DNA from: Pseudorhodobacter sp. PARRP1
GTDB lineage: Bacteria > Pseudomonadota > Alphaproteobacteria > Rhodobacterales > Rhodobacteraceae
Direction of reading: 5' to 3'
Assembly (NCBI GenBank): GCA_002256245.1
Contig: NKIU01000009.1
Location: forward strand, 62,001-126,000
Length of the DNA stretch: 64,000 bases
The notes under the pieces were generated by a model. It ran no database searches, was not told the DNA's origin, and saw nothing but the letters and a program-made list of their open reading frames with translations. The number at the start of each line of letters is the position of its first letter. Position 1 is the stretch's first letter. This document shows positions 21,391 to 33,770 of the stretch, piece after piece. The translations under genes were made by a program, and so were the position numbers.

Positions 21391-22134
21391 ATGAGCCAGA
21401 CCAACACGATTGACCCCGCCGAAGTCGCCAAGTTTGAAGCGATGGCCGCAGAATGGTGGGATACCGAGGGCAAGTTCAAGCCATTGCACCTGATGAACCC
21501 GTGCCGGTTAGACTACATCACCAGTCAGATAGCGGCGGAGTTTGATCGGGATTTGACCGCCCCGATGCCGTTCAAGGGGCTGCGGGTTCTGGATATTGGC
21601 TGCGGCGGCGGGCTGCTTTCCGAGCCGATGGCGCGGCTTGGGGCGGATGTGGTGGGGGCAGATGCGGCACCGCGGAATATTCCGGTGGCGCAGGTTCATG
21701 CGGCGCAATCGGGGCTGGCGATTGATTACCGCCATACCACGGCCGAAGATCTGGCGGCATCGGGCGAGCAGTTCGATGTGGTTTTGAACATGGAAGTGGT
21801 CGAGCATGTCGCCGACCCGCAGGGCTATCTGACGGCCTGCCAGCTTCTGCTGAAACCCGGCGGGCTGATGATTTGTTCTACCCTGAATCGCAACGCGAAA
21901 AGCTTTGTGATGGCGATCATCGGGGCGGAATGGGTGATGCGCTGGCTGCCGAAGGGCACGCATGACTGGGCGAAGTTCATCACGCCGGACGAGCTTTACG
22001 ATCTGATCCGCAAGGCGGGGCTTGATCCGGTGGACCGCAAGGGGATGGTGTTCAACCCGATCAGTTGGAAATGGGCGACCTCGGCGCGGGATTTGTCGTG
22101 CAATTATGTGACTGCCAGTGTGAAGCGCGGCTAA
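21391..22134 (+). CDS. ubiG: Ubiquinone biosynthesis O-methyltransferase UbiG
   Basis: A 247-residue SAM-dependent methyltransferase that carries out both O-methylations in ubiquinone synthesis. The SAM motif [14 protein letters not shown] is at residues 70-83; MEVVEHV and CSTLNRN are typical of UbiG. AAGGAG lies five bases before the ATG. Its last four bases overlap the end of the convergent TetR-type gene. Confidence 0.95.
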
Positions 22135-22733
22135 AGCGGCCCCAACGCCAGTTCCAGCGTTGAGATGCAGATGTGCTTGGCGGCTTTGGGCGAGAGCAGT
22201 TTCGGCTCGATGCAACGCTCCACCCCAAGGCCATCCACCAACGCGATCAGCATTTGCGCCAGCGATTTCACATCAACCGTCAGGCCGCGCGCTGTGGCAA
22301 CCTCGGCCAGCGCCGCTTCCAGATCGCGGCGATAGCGGGTGTATTGGCGGCGGTGTTCGCGTTTGAGCGCCGGGTTGTTGACGATTTCTGACCACAGGGC
22401 CAGCCAGATGTTAAGCTCCTCGCGGCTGAAAAACTCGGGCGCGAGCATGGTGTCGATGATGGCCAGCAGGCGGGGTTTCTTTGGGTTGAGTGTCTCTAGC
22501 GCGGTATGCATACGCTCATACATGGTGCGATACACCGCGACCAAAAGGCCATCTTTCGACTTGAAATGATGGGTGATCAGGCCGCGCGACACGCCAGCCT
22601 CGTTGCAGATGTTGTCGATGGTAAATTCCAGAATTCCACCGCGGGCAAGACAGGCCAGACCTGCCTGCACCAGACTGGCCGAGCGTTGCTCGGACGTCAT
22701 GCGGCTGTATTTCGGCGCGGTGCTGGTCATCAT
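22131..22733 (-). CDS. TetR-family transcriptional regulator of the peptide/N-methyl compound cluster
   Basis: A 200-residue repressor. The N-terminal helix-turn-helix ([22 protein letters not shown], read in parts at ~40-62) and [14 protein letters not shown] near 107-120 resemble the BetI subgroup. It is the last gene of the leftward hydrolase-ABC transporter unit. A perfect 9-bp hairpin separates it from the binding-protein gene. I infer that it controls the divergent promoters at 30097-30213, where two inverted copies of a 14-bp site lie. The ligand may be a quaternary or methylated amine, as in BetI, but this is not shown. Starts at 22733 or 22730 are both possible. Confidence 0.82.
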
Positions 22734-22746
22734 GTGCCTTTGAGGT

Positions 22747-22770
22747 GGGCCGGGCCAGAAAGCCCGGCCC
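22747..22770 (-). terminator. GC-rich hairpin between the binding-protein gene and the TetR-type gene
   Basis: GGGCCGGGC and GCCCGGCCC form a perfect 9-bp stem with a 6-base loop. There is no T-tract, so it more likely stabilises the abundant binding-protein mRNA or reduces read-through into the regulator gene. Confidence 0.5.
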
Positions 22771-22799
22771 GGTTGATGTTGCCGATTGCAGCGCGGTGA

Positions 22800-24353
22800 T
22801 CAAGCCTTGGTAAACATCACCGGGTCGGGGTGGCCATCGGCCATGATCACGGGTTTGACGGTGCTGTGATGGATGGCGATGTAAGGCTCGAAACAGATGA
22901 AGATGAAATCACCCGAGGCTTCCATCAAATCCTCCATCTTGTTGAAGATAGCTTTGCGCTTGGCTTCATCCTGTTCGGTCAGGCCTTGCTGGTAGAGCGA
23001 TTCAAAGTCGGCGCTGTCGAAGAAGGCCCAGTTGTAGATGCCGATCTGATCGGGGCGGAACCAGACGAGGTTCTCGGTGGGATCAATGCCGCCCGCAAAG
23101 TTCATCAGCGCCAGTTCCAAGGATTTATAACCATCGCCTGCGGTCTTGTCGCCTGCGGCCCAATAGGCGGCGTCCTCGGTGGGCTGGATTTCGATGGTGA
23201 TGCCCGCTTCGGCCATATTGGCCTGAAAGATTTGCGCAATGGCTTGGGTGGTGCTGTCGGTCAGCGCGACAAGCGTCAGGGTCAGGTCGGACACGTCAGC
23301 TTCGGCCAGCAGCGCCTTGGCCTTTTCCACATCGCGGGTCGGGATCAGGTTGGATGCGCGGGTGAAGGGGCTGGTGGGGGGAACAACGCCGGTTGAGCGG
23401 GTGGCAAGGCCGTCGTAAGCGCCGAGCAGCACGGCGTCGCTGTCATAGGCGTATTGGATGGCTTGGCGGACGCGGATGTCTTTCAGGGGTTCGGCGTTCT
23501 GATTGATCACCAGCCATGAATAGCGGGTGGATTGCGCCTCGATCAGGGTCGCGTTGGCGGGCATGGCGGCTTTGATCTGCGCGGTGGCGCTGACGGCGAG
23601 TTTGGTGAAATCGAACGCGTCAGCCTCGAAGGCCAGTTGCGCGGCCTGATCATCGGTGACGATGTAGATTTCCACGGTGGCGAAGGCAGGTTGCGGGCCT
23701 GTCCAATCGGGGTTGGCGGTGAGGGTGACTTTCTGGTTCTGCTCCCACGCGGCAAAGCGGTAGGGGCCACATTCGGCGGGGGCCTCGGTGGTGTAGCTGC
23801 CGCCGACCTTCTCGGTGGCGGCTTTGCAGATGATATTGCCGCCGTAATAGGGCAGCGCGATCACCATGAATGGGGCGAAGGCTTCTTTCAAATGGATGAT
23901 GCCAGAGCGGGCGTCGGTGACCTCAACATGGTCGAGTTTTTCGAATTGGTAGGCCCAAGCGGAGTCGCTGCCTGCGATACGTTCGAACGAGAATTTGACA
24001 TCCTCGGGCGTGACGGGACCGAAACCGTTCGACCATTGCAGGCCTTCGCGCAGGGTGAAGCCGATTTTGGTGGGGTCGATCCAGTCGATTTTCTCGGCAC
24101 CCCAGGGCTGCCATTTGTTGCCATCGCGCATATCGCCAAGCCGGACGAGGGCGACTTGGGTGCAGCGGGGGATGATTTCATCCAGCTCGCCGATCATGTT
24201 TTTCGGGTCAAGGCATTGGAAATCGGCGGTCGCGCGGATGCGCAGGGTGTCGCCCTCGGCCGCCCAAGCGAATTTCGCGGGCAGGGTCAGGGCGGCGAGG
24301 GCTGCGCCTGCGATTTGCAGGAAACCGCGACGGTCGGTGCGCCATTGGGTCAT
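22800..24353 (-). CDS. Peptide/nickel-type ABC transporter substrate-binding protein (SBP_bac_5)
   Basis: A 517-residue periplasmic binding protein of the DppA/OppA cluster. It begins with a Tat-like signal (RRGFLQIAGAALAALTLP, residues 8-25) cleaved near AWA. Segments WVLREGLQWSNG-like (FTLREGLQWSNG), FAPFMVIALPYYGG and ALQLAYE-like IQYAYDSDAVL follow the family pattern. It supplies the transporter encoded by the four genes upstream in the same unit. A Tat signal suggests it folds in the cytoplasm, as several alphaproteobacterial members do. The ligand is unknown. Confidence 0.9.
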   Translation of the reverse strand: MTQWRTDRRGFLQIAGAALAALTLPAKFAWAAEGDTLRIRATADFQCLDPKNMIGELDEIIPRCTQVALVRLGDMRDGNKWQPWGAEKIDWIDPTKIGFTLREGLQWSNGFGPVTPEDVKFSFERIAGSDSAWAYQFEKLDHVEVTDARSGIIHLKEAFAPFMVIALPYYGGNIICKAATEKVGGSYTTEAPAECGPYRFAAWEQNQKVTLTANPDWTGPQPAFATVEIYIVTDDQAAQLAFEADAFDFTKLAVSATAQIKAAMPANATLIEAQSTRYSWLVINQNAEPLKDIRVRQAIQYAYDSDAVLLGAYDGLATRSTGVVPPTSPFTRASNLIPTRDVEKAKALLAEADVSDLTLTLVALTDSTTQAIAQIFQANMAEAGITIEIQPTEDAAYWAAGDKTAGDGYKSLELALMNFAGGIDPTENLVWFRPDQIGIYNWAFFDSADFESLYQQGLTEQDEAKRKAIFNKMEDLMEASGDFIFICFEPYIAIHHSTVKPVIMADGHPDPVMFTKA

Positions 24354-25312
24354 GTTAGGGCTCCTGTGGGTTGGGCGAAGTGGCAGCGCACAAAGCGGGC
24401 GGGGCTGATTTCGCGCAAGGTGGGGGGATCGGTGCGGCAGATCGGTTGGACGTGGGGGCAGCGGCCTTGGAACACGCAGGCCTTGGGGCGGTTGAGTAGG
24501 CTGGGGATTTCACCTTTGATCGCAAGGTCTTGGCGGCGTTTTCTAGGGTCGGGCAGGGGTTCGGATGCGATCAGGCTTTGGGAATAGGGGTGCAGGGGGC
24601 GGGCGAAGGTTTCGCGGGTGGGGCCGATTTCAACGAGGCGGCCCAGATACATCACGGCAATGCGATCCGAGACGTGGCGAACCATCGCCAAGTTGTGGCT
24701 GATGATCAGGTAGCTGAGGTTGAGCCTCGTTTTCAGGTCGGTCATCAGGTTGAGGATTTCACCTTGCACCGACACATCAAGCCCCGCGGTGGGTTCATCG
24801 GCGATCACCAGTTTGGGGTTCAGCACCAGCGCGCGGGCGACGCCGACGCGGCGGGCTTGGCCACCTGACAGCTCATGCGGATAGCGGGTGGCGAAATCGG
24901 CGGGCAGGCCGACGAGGGCGAGCATGTCGGCGATTTTGGTTTTGGGGGCGGGGTGGCCGTGGATGGTCAGCGGCTCGGCCAACAGGGCGCCGATGGTCAT
25001 GCGGGGGGAAAGCGAGGCGATGGCGTCTTGGAACATCATCGCGGTGGTGGCGCGCATGGCGGCGAAATCGGCTTTGGTGCTGCGCTTGGTTTGGTCGAAG
25101 TGAATTGTGCCGTAAGTGGTGGGAGTCAGGCCCAGCAGCGCGCGGGCGAGGGTGGTTTTGCCAGAACCGGATTCGCCGACGAGGCCGAGGGTTTCGCCGG
25201 GGTTCAGGGTGAAGGACACATCGGCGAAGATTTGTAGCGTGCGTTTGGCGGACAGCAGGCCGCCGCGCAGGGGCAGGTCTAGGGCGAGGTTTTGCACCGA
25301 GAGCAGGGTCAT
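24350..25312 (-). CDS. Dipeptide-type ABC transporter ATP-binding protein (DppF-like)
   Basis: A 320-residue ATPase with Walker A GESGSGKT near 44-51, signature ELSGGQARRV and Walker B LVIADEPTAGLDV. The C-terminal oligopeptide/dipeptide (oligo_HPY) segment has a Cys cluster (KACVFQGRCPHVQPICRT). The ATG at 25312 overlaps the stop of the preceding ATPase gene by four bases (ATGA), and its stop overlaps the binding-protein start in the same way. It pairs with the other ATPase at the inner membrane. Confidence 0.93.
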   Translation of the reverse strand: MTLLSVQNLALDLPLRGGLLSAKRTLQIFADVSFTLNPGETLGLVGESGSGKTTLARALLGLTPTTYGTIHFDQTKRSTKADFAAMRATTAMMFQDAIASLSPRMTIGALLAEPLTIHGHPAPKTKIADMLALVGLPADFATRYPHELSGGQARRVGVARALVLNPKLVIADEPTAGLDVSVQGEILNLMTDLKTRLNLSYLIISHNLAMVRHVSDRIAVMYLGRLVEIGPTRETFARPLHPYSQSLIASEPLPDPRKRRQDLAIKGEIPSLLNRPKACVFQGRCPHVQPICRTDPPTLREISPARFVRCHFAQPTGALT

Positions 25313-26280
25313 GGCTGTCCCCCGGCCTTGTGGCAGAGGGCTGATTGGGTGAGTGAGATTGGCACGCGGGGCGGTGGGGTGGCGCAGATTGCTTCGGCGA
25401 GGGGGCAGCGGGGGGCGAAGCTGCATCCTGTGGGCGGGTTGCGCAGGTCTGGCAGGCGGCCTTGGATGGTGGGCAGGATCGGGGTGGCTTGTTCGAAATG
25501 GCCGGGGTCGCAGGCGATCAGGGCGCGCGTATAGGGGTGGCGGGGGGCGTGGAACAGGTCATCGACGCGGGCTTCCTCCACCACCTCGCCCGCATACATC
25601 ACATAGACGCGGTCACAGAGTTCGGCGACGACGCCGAGGTGATGGGTGATCACGAGGATCGCGCCTTGGTAGTCGCGGCGCAGATCGCGGAGGAGGTGGA
25701 TGATTTGCGCCTCCATCGTCACATCAAGGGCGGTGGTGGGTTCATCGGCGACGAGGATCGTGGGGTTCATCAGCAAAGCGGCGGCGATGGCGACGCGTTG
25801 GCGCATCCCGCCGGACAGTTGGTGCGGGTAGCGGCGCAGGGTCAGGTCGGGGTCGGGCATGCCGACGCGGGACAGCAGGGCGCGGGCGCGGGCCAGTTTT
25901 TCAGCGCGGGGGATTTGCGCGGCGTGTTGGAAATCGATCAGTTGCGCGCCGATGGTCAGCACCGGGTTGAAGGCGGTCATCGGGTCTTGGAAGATCATCG
26001 CAATGTCTTGGCCGCGCAGGGCGCGCTGGGCTTCGGGCGGCAAAGTCAGGATATCCGCGCCCTTGTAGCGGACGGCTCCGCTGGTGACTTCGGCGGCTTG
26101 CGGCAGCAGGTTGATCACGCTTGCCGCAAGGGTGGATTTGCCGCAACCGCTTTCGCCGACGATGCCGATCACCTCGCCAGCACGGGCGATCAGGCTAGCC
26201 CCGCGCAGGGCGGAAAGCTTGCCTTGGTCGGTGTGGTAGGTGACGTTCAGGGCGTCGATTTCCAGCAGCGGTTCGGTCAT
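25309..26280 (-). CDS. Dipeptide-type ABC transporter ATP-binding protein (DppD-like)
   Basis: A 323-residue ATPase with Walker [10 protein letters not shown], signature LSGGMRQRV, and Walker [14 protein letters not shown]. Its C-terminus has the oligo_HPY Cys segment ([14 protein letters not shown]). The ATG at 26280 shares one base with the permease stop (TGATG); a GTG one codon earlier is possible. It is translationally coupled with both neighbours. Confidence 0.93.
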
Positions 26281-27134
26281 CACGGCCTCGCCGTGGTAAA
26301 GCGGGGGTCGAGGGCATCGCGCAGGCCTTCACCGAGGAAGGTGAAGCCGAGGGTGGCGAGGACGAGGGGGGCTCCGGCGGCGATCACCAAGGTGCTGGAA
26401 GTGCGGATGGCGGTGTAGCCGTCGTAGAGGATGTTGCCCCATGACGGGGTCGGGGGTTTGACGCCGAGGTTGAGGTAGCTGAGGCCAGCCTCAAGCATGA
26501 TCACCACGGGGATATCCATGGAAAGGACGATGCAGAGCGGGCCGAACACGTTGGGCAGCAGGTGCATCAGCAGGATGCGGGGCGTGCTGGCGCCGATGGC
26601 TTGCTCGGCCACGATGAAATCGGCGCTGCGCAGGGTTAGGGTTTGCGCGCGGATCAGGCGGGCGTAACCGGGGATCGAGACTAGGACGACGACGAGGATC
26701 AATGTGCCCGTGCCGGGGCCAAGCACGGTGATGATGGCGAGGGCGAACATCATCATCGGCAAGGAGTTCAGAGCGTCGAAGATCAGCACAAGGGCGGCGT
26801 CGAGCCAGCGCGGGCCATAACCTGCGATCAGGCCCAGAAGGATGCCGATGCTGCCCGCGAGGCCGATCGCGGTGAGGGCGATGGTCAGTGCGGTGCGTGC
26901 GCCGTAGATGATCCGGGAAAGTGTATCGCGGCCCAACTGATCGGTGCCAAGCCAATGCGCGAGGCTGGGGGATTGCAGCTTGGCGCGCACGTCCAGTGCA
27001 AGGGGATCGTAGGGGGCGAGGATCGGGGCGGCGACGGCCATCAGGATGAACAGGGTGACAAGCACCAGGCCCATCAGCCCCATCGGATCGCGGATCAGGG
27101 CGCGCAGGGCGCGGGTGTTAGCGGGCCAGCGCAT
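26280..27134 (-). CDS. Dipeptide-type ABC transporter permease (DppC-like)
   Basis: A 284-residue inner-membrane protein with an N-terminal cytoplasmic start (ALIRDPMGLMGL), about six transmembrane helices and the PYDPLALD and LGTDQLGRDTLSRIIYGAR segments typical of DppC. The EAA-like loop EQAIGASTPRILLMHLLPN contacts the ATPases. It overlaps the other permease by 17 bases. Confidence 0.93.
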   Translation of the reverse strand: MRWPANTRALRALIRDPMGLMGLVLVTLFILMAVAAPILAPYDPLALDVRAKLQSPSLAHWLGTDQLGRDTLSRIIYGARTALTIALTAIGLAGSIGILLGLIAGYGPRWLDAALVLIFDALNSLPMMMFALAIITVLGPGTGTLILVVVLVSIPGYARLIRAQTLTLRSADFIVAEQAIGASTPRILLMHLLPNVFGPLCIVLSMDIPVVIMLEAGLSYLNLGVKPPTPSWGNILYDGYTAIRTSSTLVIAAGAPLVLATLGFTFLGEGLRDALDPRFTTARP

Positions 27135-28068
27135 CGCGCACCCTTGGGTCTAGCTTGGCGATCAGCAGGTCGGCGCAGGTGATCACCAGCAGGTAGAACG
27201 CGGTTGTGAACAGGACGGTGCCCATCACCACGGGGTAGTTGCGTTTGAACACCGCCCCCGTGATCAGCGTGCCGATGCCGGGGCGCGAGAATACGGTTTC
27301 GACAAACACCGCGCTGGACAGAATGCTGCCAAGGCCGACGGCGATCACCGAAATGGTCGGCACGATGGCAAGGCGCAGGGCGTAGCGGGTGACGACGCGC
27401 CGTTCGGGCAGGCCAAAGGCGCGGGCGGTGCGGATGTGGTTGGCGGCCATGATTTCGAGCATCGAGGCGCGGACCATGCGGGCAAGGTAGCCGACCCAGC
27501 CGATGCCGACGGCGATGGAGGGCAGGATTAAAGCCTTGATTTGTGAAGGGATGTCTCCGGCTTTGCCTGCGCCGATGGCGGGGAGCCATTGCAGCCAGAC
27601 CGCGAAGATCAAGAGCAGGTAGATCGCGACGACGAAGGACGGCACCGAGATGAAGCTGACCGAGACAAGGCCAAGGGCGCGGTCGATGAAGGTGCCGCGA
27701 TAGACGACGGCGAGGACTCCGACGGTGATGCCGAGGGTCAGCGCCCAGCTTAGGGCGACGGTGCCCAGCAGTAGGGTTTGCGGAAAGGCTTCGAGGATTT
27801 GGTCAAGGACGGGGCGTTTTGACCACACGTCGATGCCCAGATCACCCTGGGCGGCGTTGGCGAAGAAGCGCCAGATTTGCACGGCGACGGGTTGGTCAAG
27901 GCCCATACGCTCGGTCAGCATGGCTTTCAGCGCCGGGGTGGCGCGGGGGCCGAGGGCGACGCTGGCGGGGTCGCCGGGGACGAGGAAAACCATGCCATAC
28001 ATCGCCAGCATGACCACAAACAGGATCAGCGCCGCGAGGGCTGCGCGCTTGATGGCGTAGGTCAGCAT
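27118..28068 (-). CDS. Dipeptide-type ABC transporter permease (DppB-like)
   Basis: A 316-residue inner-membrane protein with six predicted helices. The N-terminus MLTYAIKRAALAALILFVVML and VPGDPASVALGPRAT are characteristic of DppB. EAA-like loop: residues around RTARAFGLPERRVV. It follows the CocE-type hydrolase gene by three bases, so uptake and hydrolysis are co-expressed. Confidence 0.93.
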   Translation of the reverse strand: MLTYAIKRAALAALILFVVMLAMYGMVFLVPGDPASVALGPRATPALKAMLTERMGLDQPVAVQIWRFFANAAQGDLGIDVWSKRPVLDQILEAFPQTLLLGTVALSWALTLGITVGVLAVVYRGTFIDRALGLVSVSFISVPSFVVAIYLLLIFAVWLQWLPAIGAGKAGDIPSQIKALILPSIAVGIGWVGYLARMVRASMLEIMAANHIRTARAFGLPERRVVTRYALRLAIVPTISVIAVGLGSILSSAVFVETVFSRPGIGTLITGAVFKRNYPVVMGTVLFTTAFYLLVITCADLLIAKLDPRVRDALAR

Positions 28069-28071
28069 GGG

Positions 28072-30096
28072 TCAGACCATGTCACGGGGGATCTCCTCAT
28101 CCCATTGGCGCTCAAAAATCAGGGTGTCGGATTCGTGGATTTTCAGGGATTGCTCGACGCGGAAATGGGTAGCGGTGCAGGACATGCGGCCAGTGGAGTG
28201 GTGGTGGATGGTGTGGCCGGGGAACTGCATGGTGACTTTGTAATCGGTGAGGGTGACGGCAGAGAGTGGGTCGCCGTCGGTGATTTCATGCCGGATGATG
28301 CCGGTGGCGGTTTGGGTCTGGCTGATGTCGGGCATGGTTTTGGAGTAGGTCCAGCGCGGGAAATCCACGGTCATTTTGCCTGACAGCAGGTCGCGCGTGA
28401 CGCGGCGCAGGGGTGGGTTTTCGACGGGATGATAGGTGTGCGGGGTTTGCGGCGCGCGGGTTGGGGGGCCGAAGGCGGGAAGGGTAGTGTCTTTGGGGTT
28501 TGGCGGGCGGATGGGGAGTTCCAGGTGGCTGTCGCCGAGGTGGATGGTGAGGGTGGCAAGCTCGGGCGAGGGCCAGGCGATGGGGTAGTAGGTGGTCGAG
28601 ATCGACACGGCGATGCGGTGGCCTGCGGGGAAGGCGTGGGCGATATCATCCAGATCAACGGTGGCGGTGTAGGTTTGGCCGGGGGTCAGAGGCGTGGCGT
28701 GTTCGTGGCTGTCGCGGTGGGTCAGGTTCAACAGGCCAACAGTGACGCGGGTTGAGCGGCCATCGGGGGCGACATCGTTCAGCCGAACAGCGGCAAGGGC
28801 TTGGGGCTTGTCGCTGGAGAATGTCAGGTGCAGCTGCGGGGCGCCGAGGATTTCTTTGGCTTCAGGCAGCGGGGCAGAGGTGAACACCAATGAGCCGCCA
28901 TCATCCTCGCGCTGATCTGTCGCCCAATCGGCGTCGTTGCCGTAGCGGCCGACTTCTCCGGCGGTCAGGCCGACCCAGAGCGGGGAGCAGATTTGGGCGG
29001 TGCCGCTGCCCGTGCCGCCGAGGATGGCGTGAGCGCCAAGCGTCAGGCGTTCGGGCTGGATGCGGGCGGAGGGCCACGCGTCTTCGGCCACCCAGCGACC
29101 GGGGCGGTCCAGATAGCAGGTCTGCGGCGGCACGTAATCCTGCATCCAGACGCGATACATCGGCTGGTCCATCAGGCAGGTGTCGATGCCCTTGGTCCAA
29201 TGATCGAGCCAGCGCACCAGGTCTTGTAGCCAGCCAATGGCGGGTTCCACCGCCACATCATGCGGATAGCTGTGCGCCCATGGGCCGATCAGGCCAAGGC
29301 GCGGGCCTTGCAGGTTTGCCAGCAGGCGCGGCACGGCTTCGGAATAATTATCGGCCCAGCCGCTGATGGCATAGACCGGGATTTTGATGGCCGAGAAATC
29401 CTCGCACACCGAGCCTTGCCGCCAGTAGTCGTCGCGGCGCTGGTGATGAAGCCATTCGATGATCCACGGCTGGTTTGCCGCGATCCGCTGCATCCACATG
29501 TCGCGCCATGCGTCACCGACCACCTGAGGATCAGGCGGCAGGTCGTTGCCGGAAAACATCGTGGCGGACCAGTCGAAGTTGTCTTTCGACAAACACCCGC
29601 CGACCCAGTGAATATCGGTGGCGTAGCGGTCATCCGTCGATCCCACCGTGATCACCGATTTCAGCGCCGGGGGCTGACGCGCGGCGATTTGCAAGCCGTT
29701 GAAGCCGCCCCATGAAATGCCGATCATCGACACTTGCCCGTCGCACCACGGCTGGGCTGCCAGCCATTCAATCGCGGCCACACCGTCGCGTTGTTCCTGC
29801 TCGGTATACTCGCCGGTGATCACGCCTTCACTTTCGCCGGTGCCGCGAATGTCCAGCCGGACGCAGGCGTAACCGTGGCCCGCCACATACATATGCAGGC
29901 CTTGATCGCGGGTGCGAGTGCCGTCGCGCAGGCGGTAAGGCAGGTATTCCAGAAGGACCGGAACCGGGGCCGCGCCGCTGAGCGCGCCTTCAGGCAACCA
30001 CAGCTTTGCCGCCAGCCGTGTGCCATCTGGCATCGGCACCCAGAGGGTTTCGATGACCTGAACGGGATGCGGAAATTCGGTTTGGATTTGCGGCAT
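28072..30096 (-). CDS. CocE/NonD-family alpha/beta-hydrolase (X-Pro dipeptidyl-peptidase-like)
   Basis: A 674-residue predicted cytoplasmic hydrolase; no signal peptide is seen. The family includes cocaine esterase, glutaryl acylases and X-Pro peptidases. Residues ~10-290 form the alpha/beta-hydrolase with GISWGG and nucleophile Ser128; the last ~250 residues form the jelly-roll PepX_C domain. AAGAGGA upstream supports the ATG at 30096. It is the first gene of the leftward unit, ahead of a dipeptide-type importer, so it probably cleaves the imported ester or peptide. The bond is unknown. Confidence 0.88.
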   Translation of the reverse strand: MPQIQTEFPHPVQVIETLWVPMPDGTRLAAKLWLPEGALSGAAPVPVLLEYLPYRLRDGTRTRDQGLHMYVAGHGYACVRLDIRGTGESEGVITGEYTEQEQRDGVAAIEWLAAQPWCDGQVSMIGISWGGFNGLQIAARQPPALKSVITVGSTDDRYATDIHWVGGCLSKDNFDWSATMFSGNDLPPDPQVVGDAWRDMWMQRIAANQPWIIEWLHHQRRDDYWRQGSVCEDFSAIKIPVYAISGWADNYSEAVPRLLANLQGPRLGLIGPWAHSYPHDVAVEPAIGWLQDLVRWLDHWTKGIDTCLMDQPMYRVWMQDYVPPQTCYLDRPGRWVAEDAWPSARIQPERLTLGAHAILGGTGSGTAQICSPLWVGLTAGEVGRYGNDADWATDQREDDGGSLVFTSAPLPEAKEILGAPQLHLTFSSDKPQALAAVRLNDVAPDGRSTRVTVGLLNLTHRDSHEHATPLTPGQTYTATVDLDDIAHAFPAGHRIAVSISTTYYPIAWPSPELATLTIHLGDSHLELPIRPPNPKDTTLPAFGPPTRAPQTPHTYHPVENPPLRRVTRDLLSGKMTVDFPRWTYSKTMPDISQTQTATGIIRHEITDGDPLSAVTLTDYKVTMQFPGHTIHHHSTGRMSCTATHFRVEQSLKIHESDTLIFERQWDEEIPRDMV

Positions 30097-30106
30097 GGCT
30101 TCCTCT

Positions 30107-30205
30107 TGTTGAACGATCATGTAACAAGCATATGCCACTTGGCAACATAAATTTAAGAGCATTGACGCAGGAGGAAATGCTCCCATACTATACGATCATT
30201 CAACA
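30107..30205. promoter_or_regulatory. Divergent control region with two inverted 14-bp sites and a sigma-70 promoter
   Basis: The site A(T/C)GATC(G/A)TTCAACA occurs twice, each reading in the direction of the adjacent gene: minus strand 30107-30120 and plus strand 30192-30205 (12 of 14 bases identical). On the plus strand TTGACG and TACTAT are 18 bases apart and end right before the second site, which would cover the transcription start, as expected for a repressor operator. The minus-strand promoter is less clear (TTGCCA, 16 bases, TACATG). Confidence 0.6.
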
Positions 30206-30213
30206 CAGAGGCG

Positions 30214-32241
30214 ATGATGGACCCCACCCACGCGATCTTGTTCGAGCCTGTGAAGATCGGGCCTGTCACGGCACCGAACCGATTCTATCAGACTCCGCAT
30301 GCCACTGGCTTGGGTTGGCAGCGGCCGCAGGCGGGGGCGGCTTTGCGCGGGATGAAGGCGGAAGGCGGTTGGGGTGTGGTCTGCACCGAGTATTGCTCGA
30401 TCCATCCAACATCGGACGACAGCCCGCACGGATTCTTGACGCTGTGGGATGACAGCGACATTTCCGCATTGGCACTGACGGCAGAGGCGATCCACGCACA
30501 TGGGTCGCTTGCGGGGATCGAGTTGTGGCACGGCGGCGCGCACGCATCGAACCGGATGACGCGGGTGCCGGGGATTGCGCCCGACGTGCAGCCCGCGATG
30601 TTCCATCTGCCGACGACAGCACGGGCGATGGATGCGAGCGATATCAAGGCGTTTCGCGGCTGGCAGCGGGATGCGGCGCTGCGGGCCAAGCGGGCCGGGT
30701 TTGACATCGTTTATGTCTATGCAGGCCACGATTATCTGCCGTTTCAGTTTCTGTCGGCGCGCAGCAACACGCGCGGCGATGCCTATGGCGGCAGTCTGGA
30801 AAATCGGGCGCGGCTGTTGCGCGAGATGATCGAGGATACCAAAGAGGCGGTGGGTGACACCTGCGCCGTGGCGCTGCGGCTGGCGGTGGACGAGTTGCAC
30901 GGGCCGCGCGGCATCACCAGCGCAGGCGAGGGGAGCGAGGTGGTCGAGATGCTCGCCGAACTCCCCGACCTGTGGGATGTGAATATCGCAGGCGCGCTGG
31001 GCAATGACAGCAAATCGGCGCGCTTCAGTGCGGAGGGGTTTCAGGAACCCTATGTGGGTTTCGTGAAAAGCCTGACCAGCAAGCCGGTGGTTTCGGTGGG
31101 GCGGTTTACCTCGCCCGAAACCATGGTGGCGCAGATCAAACGTGGGGTGCAGGATTTCATCGGGGCGGCGCGGCCTTCGATTGCCGATCCGTTTCTGCCG
31201 CTGAAAATCCGCGAGGGGCGGGCGGATGAAATTCGCGAGTGCATCGGCTGCAACATCTGCCGCGCCGCGAACAATGAGGCGGTGGCGCTGCGCTGCACGC
31301 AAAACCCGACGATGGCCGAGGAATGGCGGCAGGGCTGGCATCCCGAGCGGATCACGCTGCTGCCAAAGCGGCAAAAGGTGCTGGTGGTGGGCGCTGGGCC
31401 TGCGGGGTTGGAGGCGGCGCTGAGTTTGGGGCGGCGCGGGGCCGAGGTTGCGCTGGCCGAGGCTGGGGGTGCTTTGGGCGGGCGGATTTTGCGGGAATCA
31501 ACGCTGCCGGGATTGGGCACATGGATCAGGGTGCGCGACTGGCGGGCGCATATGATTGGCAAGCTGAACAATGTGCAGGTTTATCCGGGCAGCACGATGA
31601 CGGCGGGCGATATTGCCGATTTTGGGGCCGATCACGTGGTGTTGGCGACGGGCTCGCGCTGGCGGCGGGATGGTGTGGGGGTGGCGGGGATGCAGCCGCT
31701 TGATCTGCCCAAGGCACTGACTCCGGACGATATTTTCGCGGGCGCAGCTGTGGAAGGCCCGGTGGTGATTTACGATGACGAGCATTATTTCATGGGCGGC
31801 GCGCTGGCTGAACGGCTGCGGGCGCTGGGCCATGAGGTGACTTATGTGACGCCACAGGCGGTGGCTTCCAGTTGGACGGTGCTGACCGACGAGCAGGATT
31901 TTGTGCAGGCGCGGCTGTTGGCGGCGGGGGTGAAGATCGTGCCGCTGCATCTGCTGGAGGCGCAGATGCCGGGCATTGTGCGGTTGGCTTGTGCCTATAC
32001 CGGGCGGGTGGTGGAGCAGGCTTGCGGCACACTGATCGTGGCGACTGGGCGGGTTCCGGTGGATGACCTGCATGCGCCTCTGCTGGCGGTTGGTGTCGCC
32101 GTCACCCGCGTGGGGGATTGTTTGCAGCCGTCCTCTATCGCCGATGCGGTCTATTCCTCGCATCGCTTTGCGCGCGGGTTTGGTGCGGCGGTGGAGCCTG
32201 TGTTGCAGCGCGAAAAACCGCCATTGAGGGGATTGCTATGA
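30214..32241 (+). CDS. TMADH/DgcA-like flavin and iron-sulfur oxidoreductase
   Basis: A 675-residue protein with an N-terminal old-yellow-enzyme TIM barrel binding FMN (NRFYQTPHATGLG near 22-34), a 4Fe-4S motif C343-x2-C346-x2-C349-x11-C361, and a C-terminal FAD/NAD-type Rossmann region (VVGAGPAGLEAALS from about 390). This is the layout of trimethylamine dehydrogenase, dimethylglycine demethylase DgcA and 2,4-dienoyl-CoA reductase. The 11-residue Cys spacing and the start motif favour the amine N-demethylase branch, which gives formaldehyde and passes electrons to an electron-transfer flavoprotein. Its stop overlaps the methyltransferase start by four bases. Confidence 0.88.
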   Translation: MMDPTHAILFEPVKIGPVTAPNRFYQTPHATGLGWQRPQAGAALRGMKAEGGWGVVCTEYCSIHPTSDDSPHGFLTLWDDSDISALALTAEAIHAHGSLAGIELWHGGAHASNRMTRVPGIAPDVQPAMFHLPTTARAMDASDIKAFRGWQRDAALRAKRAGFDIVYVYAGHDYLPFQFLSARSNTRGDAYGGSLENRARLLREMIEDTKEAVGDTCAVALRLAVDELHGPRGITSAGEGSEVVEMLAELPDLWDVNIAGALGNDSKSARFSAEGFQEPYVGFVKSLTSKPVVSVGRFTSPETMVAQIKRGVQDFIGAARPSIADPFLPLKIREGRADEIRECIGCNICRAANNEAVALRCTQNPTMAEEWRQGWHPERITLLPKRQKVLVVGAGPAGLEAALSLGRRGAEVALAEAGGALGGRILRESTLPGLGTWIRVRDWRAHMIGKLNNVQVYPGSTMTAGDIADFGADHVVLATGSRWRRDGVGVAGMQPLDLPKALTPDDIFAGAAVEGPVVIYDDEHYFMGGALAERLRALGHEVTYVTPQAVASSWTVLTDEQDFVQARLLAAGVKIVPLHLLEAQMPGIVRLACAYTGRVVEQACGTLIVATGRVPVDDLHAPLLAVGVAVTRVGDCLQPSSIADAVYSSHRFARGFGAAVEPVLQREKPPLRGLL

Positions 32242-33770
32242 CAGATACCGCCCCGCGCAAACGCAGCGCAAGTCGTGGTCCGCGTGCGGCGGGCGTCTTG
32301 CATCAGATGCCGTTCGGACAGGTCTCGCGCCCCTATGCGCCGATTGAGGTGCTGTCGGCGGATCATGTCATGGCGATCCATAACTCGGCGCTGCGGGTGT
32401 TGGCCGAGATTGGCATGGCGGTGCTTGAACCCCAAGCGCGGGCGTTGTTCGCGCGGGCGGGGGCAGAGGTTTCCGGCGAGACGGTGCGGCTGGATGCGGA
32501 TTTGGTGGGCAGTTTGCTGGCCTCGGTGCCGCGTAGCTTTGGGCTAGAGGCGCGCAATCCGGTGCGGAATTTGCGCTTTGGTGGGGCGGATTGCGTCTTC
32601 GCCTCGGTCGGCGGGCCGGCCTATGTGATGGACAATGACGGTGGGCGCAGGAACGGCACATTTGCCGAGATGCAGGATTATCTGAAGCTGGTGCAAAGCC
32701 TGAACGTGCTTCATCAGGCCGGTGGCAATCCGTTCGAGCCGATGGATTTGCCTGCGGATACCCGCTATCTCGACTGCTTTCATGCGCAAATCCGGCTGCT
32801 GGACAAGAACTGGCAGACCGAGACTTTGGGGCGGCAGCGCACGCTGGATGGCATCGAAATGGCGGCGATTTCGTTGGGCACGGCGCCCGAGGGGCTGCGG
32901 GGCAGGCCCTGCCTGCTGGGCATCATCAACACCAACTCGCCGTTGCAATTGGACATTCCGATGGCCGAGGGGCTGATCACCATGGCCGAATATGGTCAGG
33001 TGGTGGTGATTACGCCGTTCACTTTGGCGGGCGCGATGAGCCCGGTGACGCTGGCCGGGGCCTTGGTGATGCAGCACGCCGAGGCGATGGCGGGGATCGC
33101 CTTGACCCAGATCGTGCGAAAGGGCGTGCCGGTGATGTATGGTGGGTTTACCTCGAACGTCGATATGCGCTCGGGCGCGCCTGCGTTTGGCACGCCGGAA
33201 TATACCAAGGCGGCGCAGGCCTCGGGGCAGTTGGCGCGGCTGATCGGCGTGCCGTTCCGGTCCTCGAATGTAACCGCTGCGAACGAGGTCGATGCGCAGG
33301 CGGCTTATGAGTCGCAGATGTCGCTGTGGGGCGCGATGATGGGTGGGGCGCATCTGATCGAACATGCGGCGGGGTGGCTGCATGGTGGGCTGACGGCGAG
33401 TTTTGAAAAGCTGATTGTCGATGCCGAGATGCTGCAAATGATGCAGGAATATTTCACGCCCTTGGTGGTTGATGAGGCGACCTTGGCGTTTGAGGCTATC
33501 CGCGAGGTGGGGTCGGGCGGGCATTTCTTTGGGTCAGAGCACACCATGAGCCGGTATGAGCAGGCGTTCTACACGCCGCTGTTGTCGAACTGGGATAACC
33601 ACACGACTTGGCTGGGCAAGGGTGCGGTGCAATCGCGCGAGAGGGCGAATGTGATCTGGAAACAGATGCTTGCAGAATATGAACAGCCGCCGCTGGACCC
33701 TGCGATTGATGAGGCTTTGGCGGCGTTTGTGGCCAAGCGGAAGGCAGAGGGTGGCGCGCCGATGAATTAA
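32238..33770 (+). CDS. MttB-superfamily (trimethylamine methyltransferase-like) protein, non-pyrrolysine
   Basis: A 510-residue protein of the MttB family; the archaeal founder moves a methyl group from trimethylamine to a corrinoid protein using pyrrolysine. This member reads through with ordinary codons and ends in TAA, so it has no pyrrolysine. Non-Pyl relatives such as MtgB and MtpB demethylate glycine betaine or proline betaine. Family-like stretches include HQAGGNPFEPMD, NTNSPLQLD and FGSEHTMSRYEQAFY near the C-terminus. The ATG overlaps the flavoenzyme stop (ATGA). No corrinoid protein or activator is nearby, so the methyl acceptor is unknown. Confidence 0.85.
   Translation: MTDTAPRKRSASRGPRAAGVLHQMPFGQVSRPYAPIEVLSADHVMAIHNSALRVLAEIGMAVLEPQARALFARAGAEVSGETVRLDADLVGSLLASVPRSFGLEARNPVRNLRFGGADCVFASVGGPAYVMDNDGGRRNGTFAEMQDYLKLVQSLNVLHQAGGNPFEPMDLPADTRYLDCFHAQIRLLDKNWQTETLGRQRTLDGIEMAAISLGTAPEGLRGRPCLLGIINTNSPLQLDIPMAEGLITMAEYGQVVVITPFTLAGAMSPVTLAGALVMQHAEAMAGIALTQIVRKGVPVMYGGFTSNVDMRSGAPAFGTPEYTKAAQASGQLARLIGVPFRSSNVTAANEVDAQAAYESQMSLWGAMMGGAHLIEHAAGWLHGGLTASFEKLIVDAEMLQMMQEYFTPLVVDEATLAFEAIREVGSGGHFFGSEHTMSRYEQAFYTPLLSNWDNHTTWLGKGAVQSRERANVIWKQMLAEYEQPPLDPAIDEALAAFVAKRKAEGGAPMN

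Follow-up and report, generated by a model that had tools for sequence, protein, structure and literature searches.

In Ruegeria pomeroyi, the corrinoid system MtgBCD has been described to demethylate glycine betaine aerobically, with a corrinoid protein and RamA (PMC12478193, available part). The same part of this report names GbcAB as the quaternary demethylase of the Pseudomonas glycine betaine pathway (PMC12478193). The subject of this analysis is a nine-gene cluster of Pseudorhodobacter sp. PARRP1, found on a stretch of 64,000 nucleotides of contig NKIU01000009.1, the whole of which is referred to here as the window. As in the Ruegeria system, an MttB-family protein of an aerobic alphaproteobacterium would work here with a corrinoid protein and RamA, but the Ruegeria genes serve glycine betaine and go with a predicted BCCT-type carrier (PMC12478193, available part), whereas here MttB is encoded with a flavin Fe-S enzyme of the trimethylamine dehydrogenase (TMADH) family, a hydrolase, a Dpp-type importer and a local TetR regulator. 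The cluster also resembles the Pseudomonas GbcAB-DgcAB pathway in that a quaternary demethylase, here a putative one, is followed by a TMADH-family enzyme, with GbcA-like genes in two relatives (loci L110 and L091), but differs from it in the presence of MttB and in the added hydrolase and importer. DgcA is itself a member of the TMADH family. Judged from its recurrence in other genomes, the gene set is a conserved unit, beyond chance; it is most likely catabolic for an N-methylated compound and apparently under its own local repressor. The features of the cluster are as follows.

22131-22733, minus strand: TetR-family regulator with a BetI-type C-terminal domain (PF13977, PF00440), end gene of the leftward unit
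22800-24353, minus strand: family-5 (SBP_bac_5) binding protein of the ABC importer (PF00496)
24350-25312, minus strand: DppF-like ATPase (PF00005, PF08352), start chosen at a Met within a longer open frame
25309-26283, minus strand: DppD-like ATPase (PF00005, PF08352)
26280-27134, minus strand: DppC-like permease (PF00528, PF12911)
27118-28068, minus strand: DppB-like permease (PF00528, PF19300)
28072-30096, minus strand: CocE/NonD (S15) alpha/beta hydrolase (TIGR00976), opening gene of the leftward unit
30097-30213: 117-bp control region common to both units
30106-30127: operator-like site 1, with 3 mismatches to TTGTTGWACGATCGTWCAACAA, directly upstream of the hydrolase gene
30185-30206: weaker operator-like site 2, with 6 mismatches, before the TMADH-like gene
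30214-32241, plus strand: flavin Fe-S enzyme of the TMADH/histamine dehydrogenase family with a type A active site
32238-33770, plus strand: MttB-superfamily methyltransferase without pyrrolysine (PF06253)

All nine genes that the original prediction had placed at 22131-33770 are present where it put them, and profile matches agree with the families it named. Only some gene starts required small changes, to 30096 for the hydrolase, about 25312 for DppF and 32238 for MttB, the ATG of which overlaps the stop codon of the TMADH-like gene.

A contig scan with MttB yielded 74 loci, mostly from Rhodobacterales and Mesorhizobium, with one from a gammaproteobacterial metagenome-assembled genome; 19 of these loci are short and 55 have at least 20 kb. 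With gene presence called by self-set identity thresholds, the 74 loci showed a TMADH-like gene in 73, the hydrolase in 64, the TetR gene in 63, the binding protein in 52 and DppB, DppC, DppD and DppF in 55, 54, 51 and 53, respectively. Among the 55 long loci, the corresponding numbers were 54 for the TMADH-like gene, 52 each for the hydrolase and TetR and 46 for the binding protein; 47 of the long loci had at least three Dpp genes. In 72 of 73 cases, the TMADH-like gene directly precedes MttB and shares its strand; by comparison, the orientation of the hydrolase unit varies (divergent in 23 loci, convergent in 25, collinear in 15, other in 1 and not found in 10), and the entire gene set is carried on plasmids in two cases. 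TMADH-like and CocE genes were absent from all 17 of the 20-kb stretches around distant MttB relatives (58% identity or less), nine of which hold DMGDH- or sarcosine-oxidase-like genes, as does locus L113. Because the set recurs in 74 loci with altered gene order and in none of these 17 outgroup stretches, its association goes beyond chance, and the earlier proposal that the two divergent units belong together is borne out by relatives that keep them together. Within the order of the window, MttB at 60% identity or more was found in only two of 149 genomes, its own and that designated G042 (74%), and the cluster is therefore sporadic there. No description of the nine-gene set was found in the open-licence literature, among the matches listed.

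Further evidence for a common function comes from a palindrome, TTGTTGWACGATCGTWCAACAA, which was derived from ten-base words common to the upstream regions and marks the promoters of both units in most of the gene arrangements. The 74 loci and the window (1,487,508 bases) contain 69 sites with four or fewer mismatches, 67 of which lie within 300 bp of a TMADH-like or hydrolase start (starts placed by tblastn); of the other two, one precedes a hydrolase that is divided between two matches (L073) and one precedes DppB in a hydrolase-less locus (L057). When up to six mismatches were allowed, window included, a site preceded 59 of 72 TMADH-like and 41 of 61 hydrolase genes. In the convergent loci, mostly of Mesorhizobium, where the two promoters are approximately 12-15 kb apart, such a site was found on the TMADH side in 25/25 and on the hydrolase side in 20/21. 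At the same threshold, 11 of 592 random windows of the cluster loci matched, some of which may overlap true sites, and none of 38 control loci (746,119 bases) had a site with five or fewer mismatches. Analysis of 35 whole genomes identified 43 distinct sites with three or fewer mismatches in 26 genomes; assigned by coordinates, 40 fall inside fetched cluster loci and the remaining three lie 0.8-1.6 kb beyond the locus edge that the hydrolase gene crosses. The window itself has one good site, at 30106-30127, and the site at 30185-30206, which falls in a block kept among Cypionkella relatives, is the second best in the 64 kb.

The nine genes are probably regulated as one unit, and the common 117-bp region with its operator-like site supports the shared control that had been claimed for both halves. 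We infer that the cluster TetR binds the palindrome; this protein reaches 102.2 bits with the model of the choline repressor BetI (TIGR03384), against a cut-off of 201.3. An ordinary peptide importer and hydrolase that stand by chance beside unrelated demethylases might be suspected, since there are hydrolase-importer pairs whose fetched stretches contain neither MttB nor a TMADH-like gene (L111, L120, L128 and others), but this explanation is strongly disfavoured, to the point of being very improbable, by a gene set that is kept in several gene orders and by a single palindrome that precedes both units and was found nowhere else in the searched genomes at three or fewer mismatches.

The MttB protein belongs to its superfamily by a wide margin (PF06253, 632.7 bits against a cut-off of 25, covering positions 4-500 of 500) and is not a pyrrolysine enzyme, as its frame has no stop and the alignment places a Val opposite the X (position 334) of pyrrolysine MttB; the score with TIGR02369 is 283.6 bits against a cut-off of 525. 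Its best solved relatives are 4yyc, 2qne and 9yce. One loop carries N where MtgB and pyrrolysine MttB have K, and this change was rejected as a hallmark of the cluster since sister groups have it too. The corrinoid protein and reductive activase that an MtgB-type enzyme requires are available in the genome, as an MtgC-like protein (C10) and RamA (C17), both encoded away from the cluster. Pterin_bind has two matches in the genome, and the folate partner may be among them; there are also four further MttB-family genes (C17 and C7), one at 24% identity. Among the carrier genomes examined (34 chosen of the 74), an MtgC-like protein was found in 34/34 and RamA in 34/34, with MtgC in G553 seen solely as two short contig-edge fragments. 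RamA was found in 87 of 385 evenly drawn Alphaproteobacteria, a contrast that is inflated by kinship because near kin in the draw also have RamA. A corrinoid route is likely for MttB. One of the carriers, L078, is Mesorhizobium sp. 1M-11, which grows on methylated amines (PMC4653772, available part). In Mesorhizobium alhagi, an mttB was salt-induced and its knockout was not salt-sensitive, according to the available part of the report (PMC4302635).

The enzyme encoded upstream of MttB has the FMN (flavin mononucleotide) domain, the four Fe-S cysteines, Y169 and D267 of the TMADH superfamily, all of which it shares with trimethylamine dehydrogenase (1djn) and histamine dehydrogenase (3k30, 6de6); Y169, D267 and the cysteines are kept in 74/74 of the TMADH-like proteins. 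In trimethylamine dehydrogenase, Cys30 is the attachment of the 6-S-cysteinyl FMN, and Y60, W264 and W355 form an aromatic bowl. Unlike that enzyme, the cluster proteins have Ala aligned with Cys30 (74/74) and have lost W264, which is aligned with Leu or a gap. They fall into two types, approximately 50% alike: type A (17 proteins, including that of the window) keeps Y60 and H172 and has lost W355, and type B (57 proteins) keeps W355 and has lost Y60 and H172, so that of the bowl only Y60 or only W355 is left. Thus, of the earlier assignment to TMADH/DgcA-like enzymes the superfamily stands, but Cys30 and part of the trimethylamine bowl are gone, and trimethylamine is an unlikely substrate on the basis of these residues. 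On the MttB tree (73 rows) the types switch five times, with at least three switches forced by supported branches, which indicates that the second enzyme was exchanged several times in the same place.

MttB and the TMADH-like protein might instead act on something other than a quaternary amine, for example on S-methyl, O-methyl or tertiary N-methyl groups, or the TMADH-like protein might deaminate or reduce its substrate. Three observations would fit this reading: among solved structures, the TMADH-like protein is closest to a histamine dehydrogenase; Cys30 and most of the aromatic bowl are gone; and the MttB group carries N in the loop. The reading appears rather improbable, however, given the GbcA-like Rieske oxygenases in related clusters described below and the DMGDH- or sarcosine-oxidase-like genes in 9 of the 17 outgroup MttB stretches.

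The hydrolase that opens the leftward unit is a CocE/NonD enzyme (TIGR00976, 237.9 bits against a cut-off of 66.3) with no signal peptide by eye and a catalytic triad placed by alignment at S128, D249 and H275; across 63 aligned rows, these positions hold S in 59, D in 60 and H in 61, with gaps and one G in the others. A midpoint-rooted tree groups the cluster hydrolases (34 sampled ones and that of Ensifer) in a single clade (SH-aLRT 88), apart from 33 other homologues. Of 20 loci picked from the other hydrolase matches (20-kb stretches), 10 have at least three Dpp genes and none has a TMADH-like gene; L124 alone has an MttB, of 42%, together with a DMGDH-like gene. The presence of Dpp genes beside hydrolases outside the cluster suggests that a more widespread type of module was probably the source of the hydrolase-importer half. 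For instance, plasmid pPGA1_262 of Phaeobacter inhibens also has a hydrolase adjoining a Dpp-type importer, the binding protein of which is related to that of the cluster (39%), but no MttB or TMADH-like gene was found in its 19-kb stretch and its hydrolase is outside the cluster clade. In L125 and L130, several CocE-type hydrolase genes were found per 20-kb stretch, with Dpp genes beside them in L130 and not in L125.

The binding protein begins with TDRRGFLQ, which is twin-arginine-like by eye; the strict RR motif is found in only 20 of 56 binding-protein rows. While it shares the SBP_bac_5 family with Escherichia coli DppA, it lacks equivalents of D408 and R355, which we take to be the residues that hold the dipeptide ends: Gly stands at the D408 position in 53/55 and a gap at the R355 position in 55/55 of the cluster proteins, and the DppA model NF043070 gives 49.2 bits against a cut-off of 1005. 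This argues against dipeptides bound as in DppA, and with it against the dipeptide-type link of the original prediction; other modes of peptide binding are possible. An Opp-type importer for proline betaine, Prb, is known in Sinorhizobium and is named in the available part of PMC11337228. Together with the BetI-like regulator and the GbcA-like enzymes of relatives, this would fit a substrate that is a free small betaine, such as proline betaine, carnitine or a relative, with the hydrolase acting on a later product, for example a lactone, or contributing a side activity. We consider this explanation unlikely, since a hydrolase that is present in 52 of 55 long loci, and forms its own clade where sampled, goes beyond what a side activity would lead one to expect, and since the likeness of the binding protein to its Opp-type counterpart in the pSymB stretch, a candidate Prb, is only 26%. 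Prb could likewise not be confirmed as the family of the cluster importer.

Relatives in which parts are replaced bear on the chemistry. In Rhizobium sp. RCAM05350 (L110), TetR, a type B TMADH-like enzyme, the hydrolase, Dpp and the binding protein are kept together, followed by a frame-broken Rieske oxygenase and a second TMADH-like enzyme, of type A; MttB was not found in this 21-kb stretch, the search being confined to it. The three pieces of the oxygenase match best the GbcA model NF058607 (49.5, 53.8 and 23.8 bits; cut-off 670). The Ensifer locus L109 has a type A TMADH-like enzyme, the hydrolase, Dpp and the binding protein, with electron-transfer flavoprotein genes at the end of the unit and no MttB in the stretch. 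In G042 (L091 and L139), MttB and a type B TMADH-like enzyme face a divergent unit of a 2-oxoglutarate-Fe oxygenase, a GbcA-like Rieske oxygenase, another Dpp importer and a BetI-like TetR (45%); a palindrome site with three mismatches precedes the TMADH gene, a LysR gene lies between the units, and the stretch has no CocE gene of the cluster kind, a 44% homologue being found elsewhere in the genome only. The Rieske oxygenase of L091 also has NF058607 as its best-matching model (166.9 bits), and neither this enzyme nor that of L110 reaches the cut-off for GbcA. The occurrence of GbcA-like Rieske oxygenases in these related clusters suggests chemistry on quaternary amines. The 2-oxoglutarate-Fe(II) oxygenase of L091 (13660-14502), just upstream of the Rieske oxygenase and Dpp importer, has a HalD match.

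Other genes near MttB were found in some loci. Downstream of MttB, L015, L021, L022 and L025 have genes for a glutamine amidotransferase, a GXGXG and Glu_synthase protein and a GltD-like protein, a trio (4/74) that we take to be like N-methylglutamate synthase and whose presence may point to methylamine as a product. L043, L049, L060 and L066 (4/74) have an HD-domain protein with weak likeness to PhnZ/TmpB and an Amidohydro_2 gene, in two different positions, with a small Rieske protein between the two in L043. M24 proteins were found by the MttB clusters of L009 (19684-20985), L065 (11314-12771) and L113 (10587-11813); that of L009 is DddP-like (387 bits, under the cut-off of 600), and DddP-like M24 genes were counted in 2/74. 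Each of these accessory genes is too rare to fix the substrate, and they were rejected as a clue to it. In the window, the left neighbours of the cluster are a methyltransferase gene and a hydrolase gene adjoining rimP-nusA-infB, and the right neighbours are dnaJ-dnaK.

Taken together, we think it probable that the cluster imports and hydrolyzes a conjugated N-methyl compound and then removes N-methyl groups stepwise, as one catabolic unit under a local repressor. The Dpp-type importer, with its binding protein unlike DppA, would take up a compound of medium size whose N-methyl group is quaternary and of the betaine type, and the CocE-type serine hydrolase, probably in the cytoplasm, would split its ester or amide bond. 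MttB would pass one N-methyl to the MtgC-like corrinoid protein, which is encoded away from the cluster and would be kept active by RamA, and from this protein the methyl would go on to folate; the TMADH-like enzyme would oxidize the next N-methyl, with electrons probably going to an electron-transfer flavoprotein. The compound or a product could free the operators from the BetI-like repressor. We infer the order of hydrolysis, MttB and TMADH-like step. The stepwise N-demethylation originally envisaged fits the families, the corrinoid partners and the GbcA-like enzymes of L110 and L091.

Several observations weigh against this account. The palindrome consensus was first read from the very upstream regions that were later scored; in divergent loci, a site with six or fewer mismatches was found on the TMADH side in 20/23 and on the hydrolase side in 20/23, where one site may serve both sides because the two upstream stretches overlap; collinear loci have it in only 4/15 (TMADH side) and 0/15 (hydrolase side), and may thus use another site; and 9 of the 35 whole genomes have no site at three or fewer mismatches. 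Dpp genes are lacking in 8 of 55 long loci, and no recurring alternative transporter was found in loci without Dpp when gene maps and translations were read by eye. The hydrolase is lacking in 3 of 55; of these three genomes, two have hydrolase homologues of 45-46% elsewhere and the third has none at E 1e-60. Finally, kin that lack the cluster commonly have RamA and MtgC as well.

More tentatively, import, hydrolysis and stepwise demethylation could make up an aerobic pathway that depends on cobalamin, has no earlier description and serves a conjugated quaternary ammonium compound. In this pathway, a fixed core of hydrolase, repressor and operator would be combined with exchangeable demethylation enzymes, namely MttB or a GbcA-like Rieske oxygenase and a TMADH-like enzyme of type A or B. 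The repeated swapping of type A and type B suggests that the demethylation parts are the exchangeable ones. As a guess, the substrate class may be betaines in ester or amide linkage; head groups of betaine lipids and N-trimethylated conjugates would be examples.

Many bacteria of soil and water carry this gene set together, and its palindrome and binding protein offer direct ways toward the substrate. If the proposed function is true, aerobic bacteria, many Mesorhizobium among them, would have one more route of corrinoid N-demethylation under separate regulation, and this chemistry would perhaps reach conjugated compounds that need to be imported and split first.

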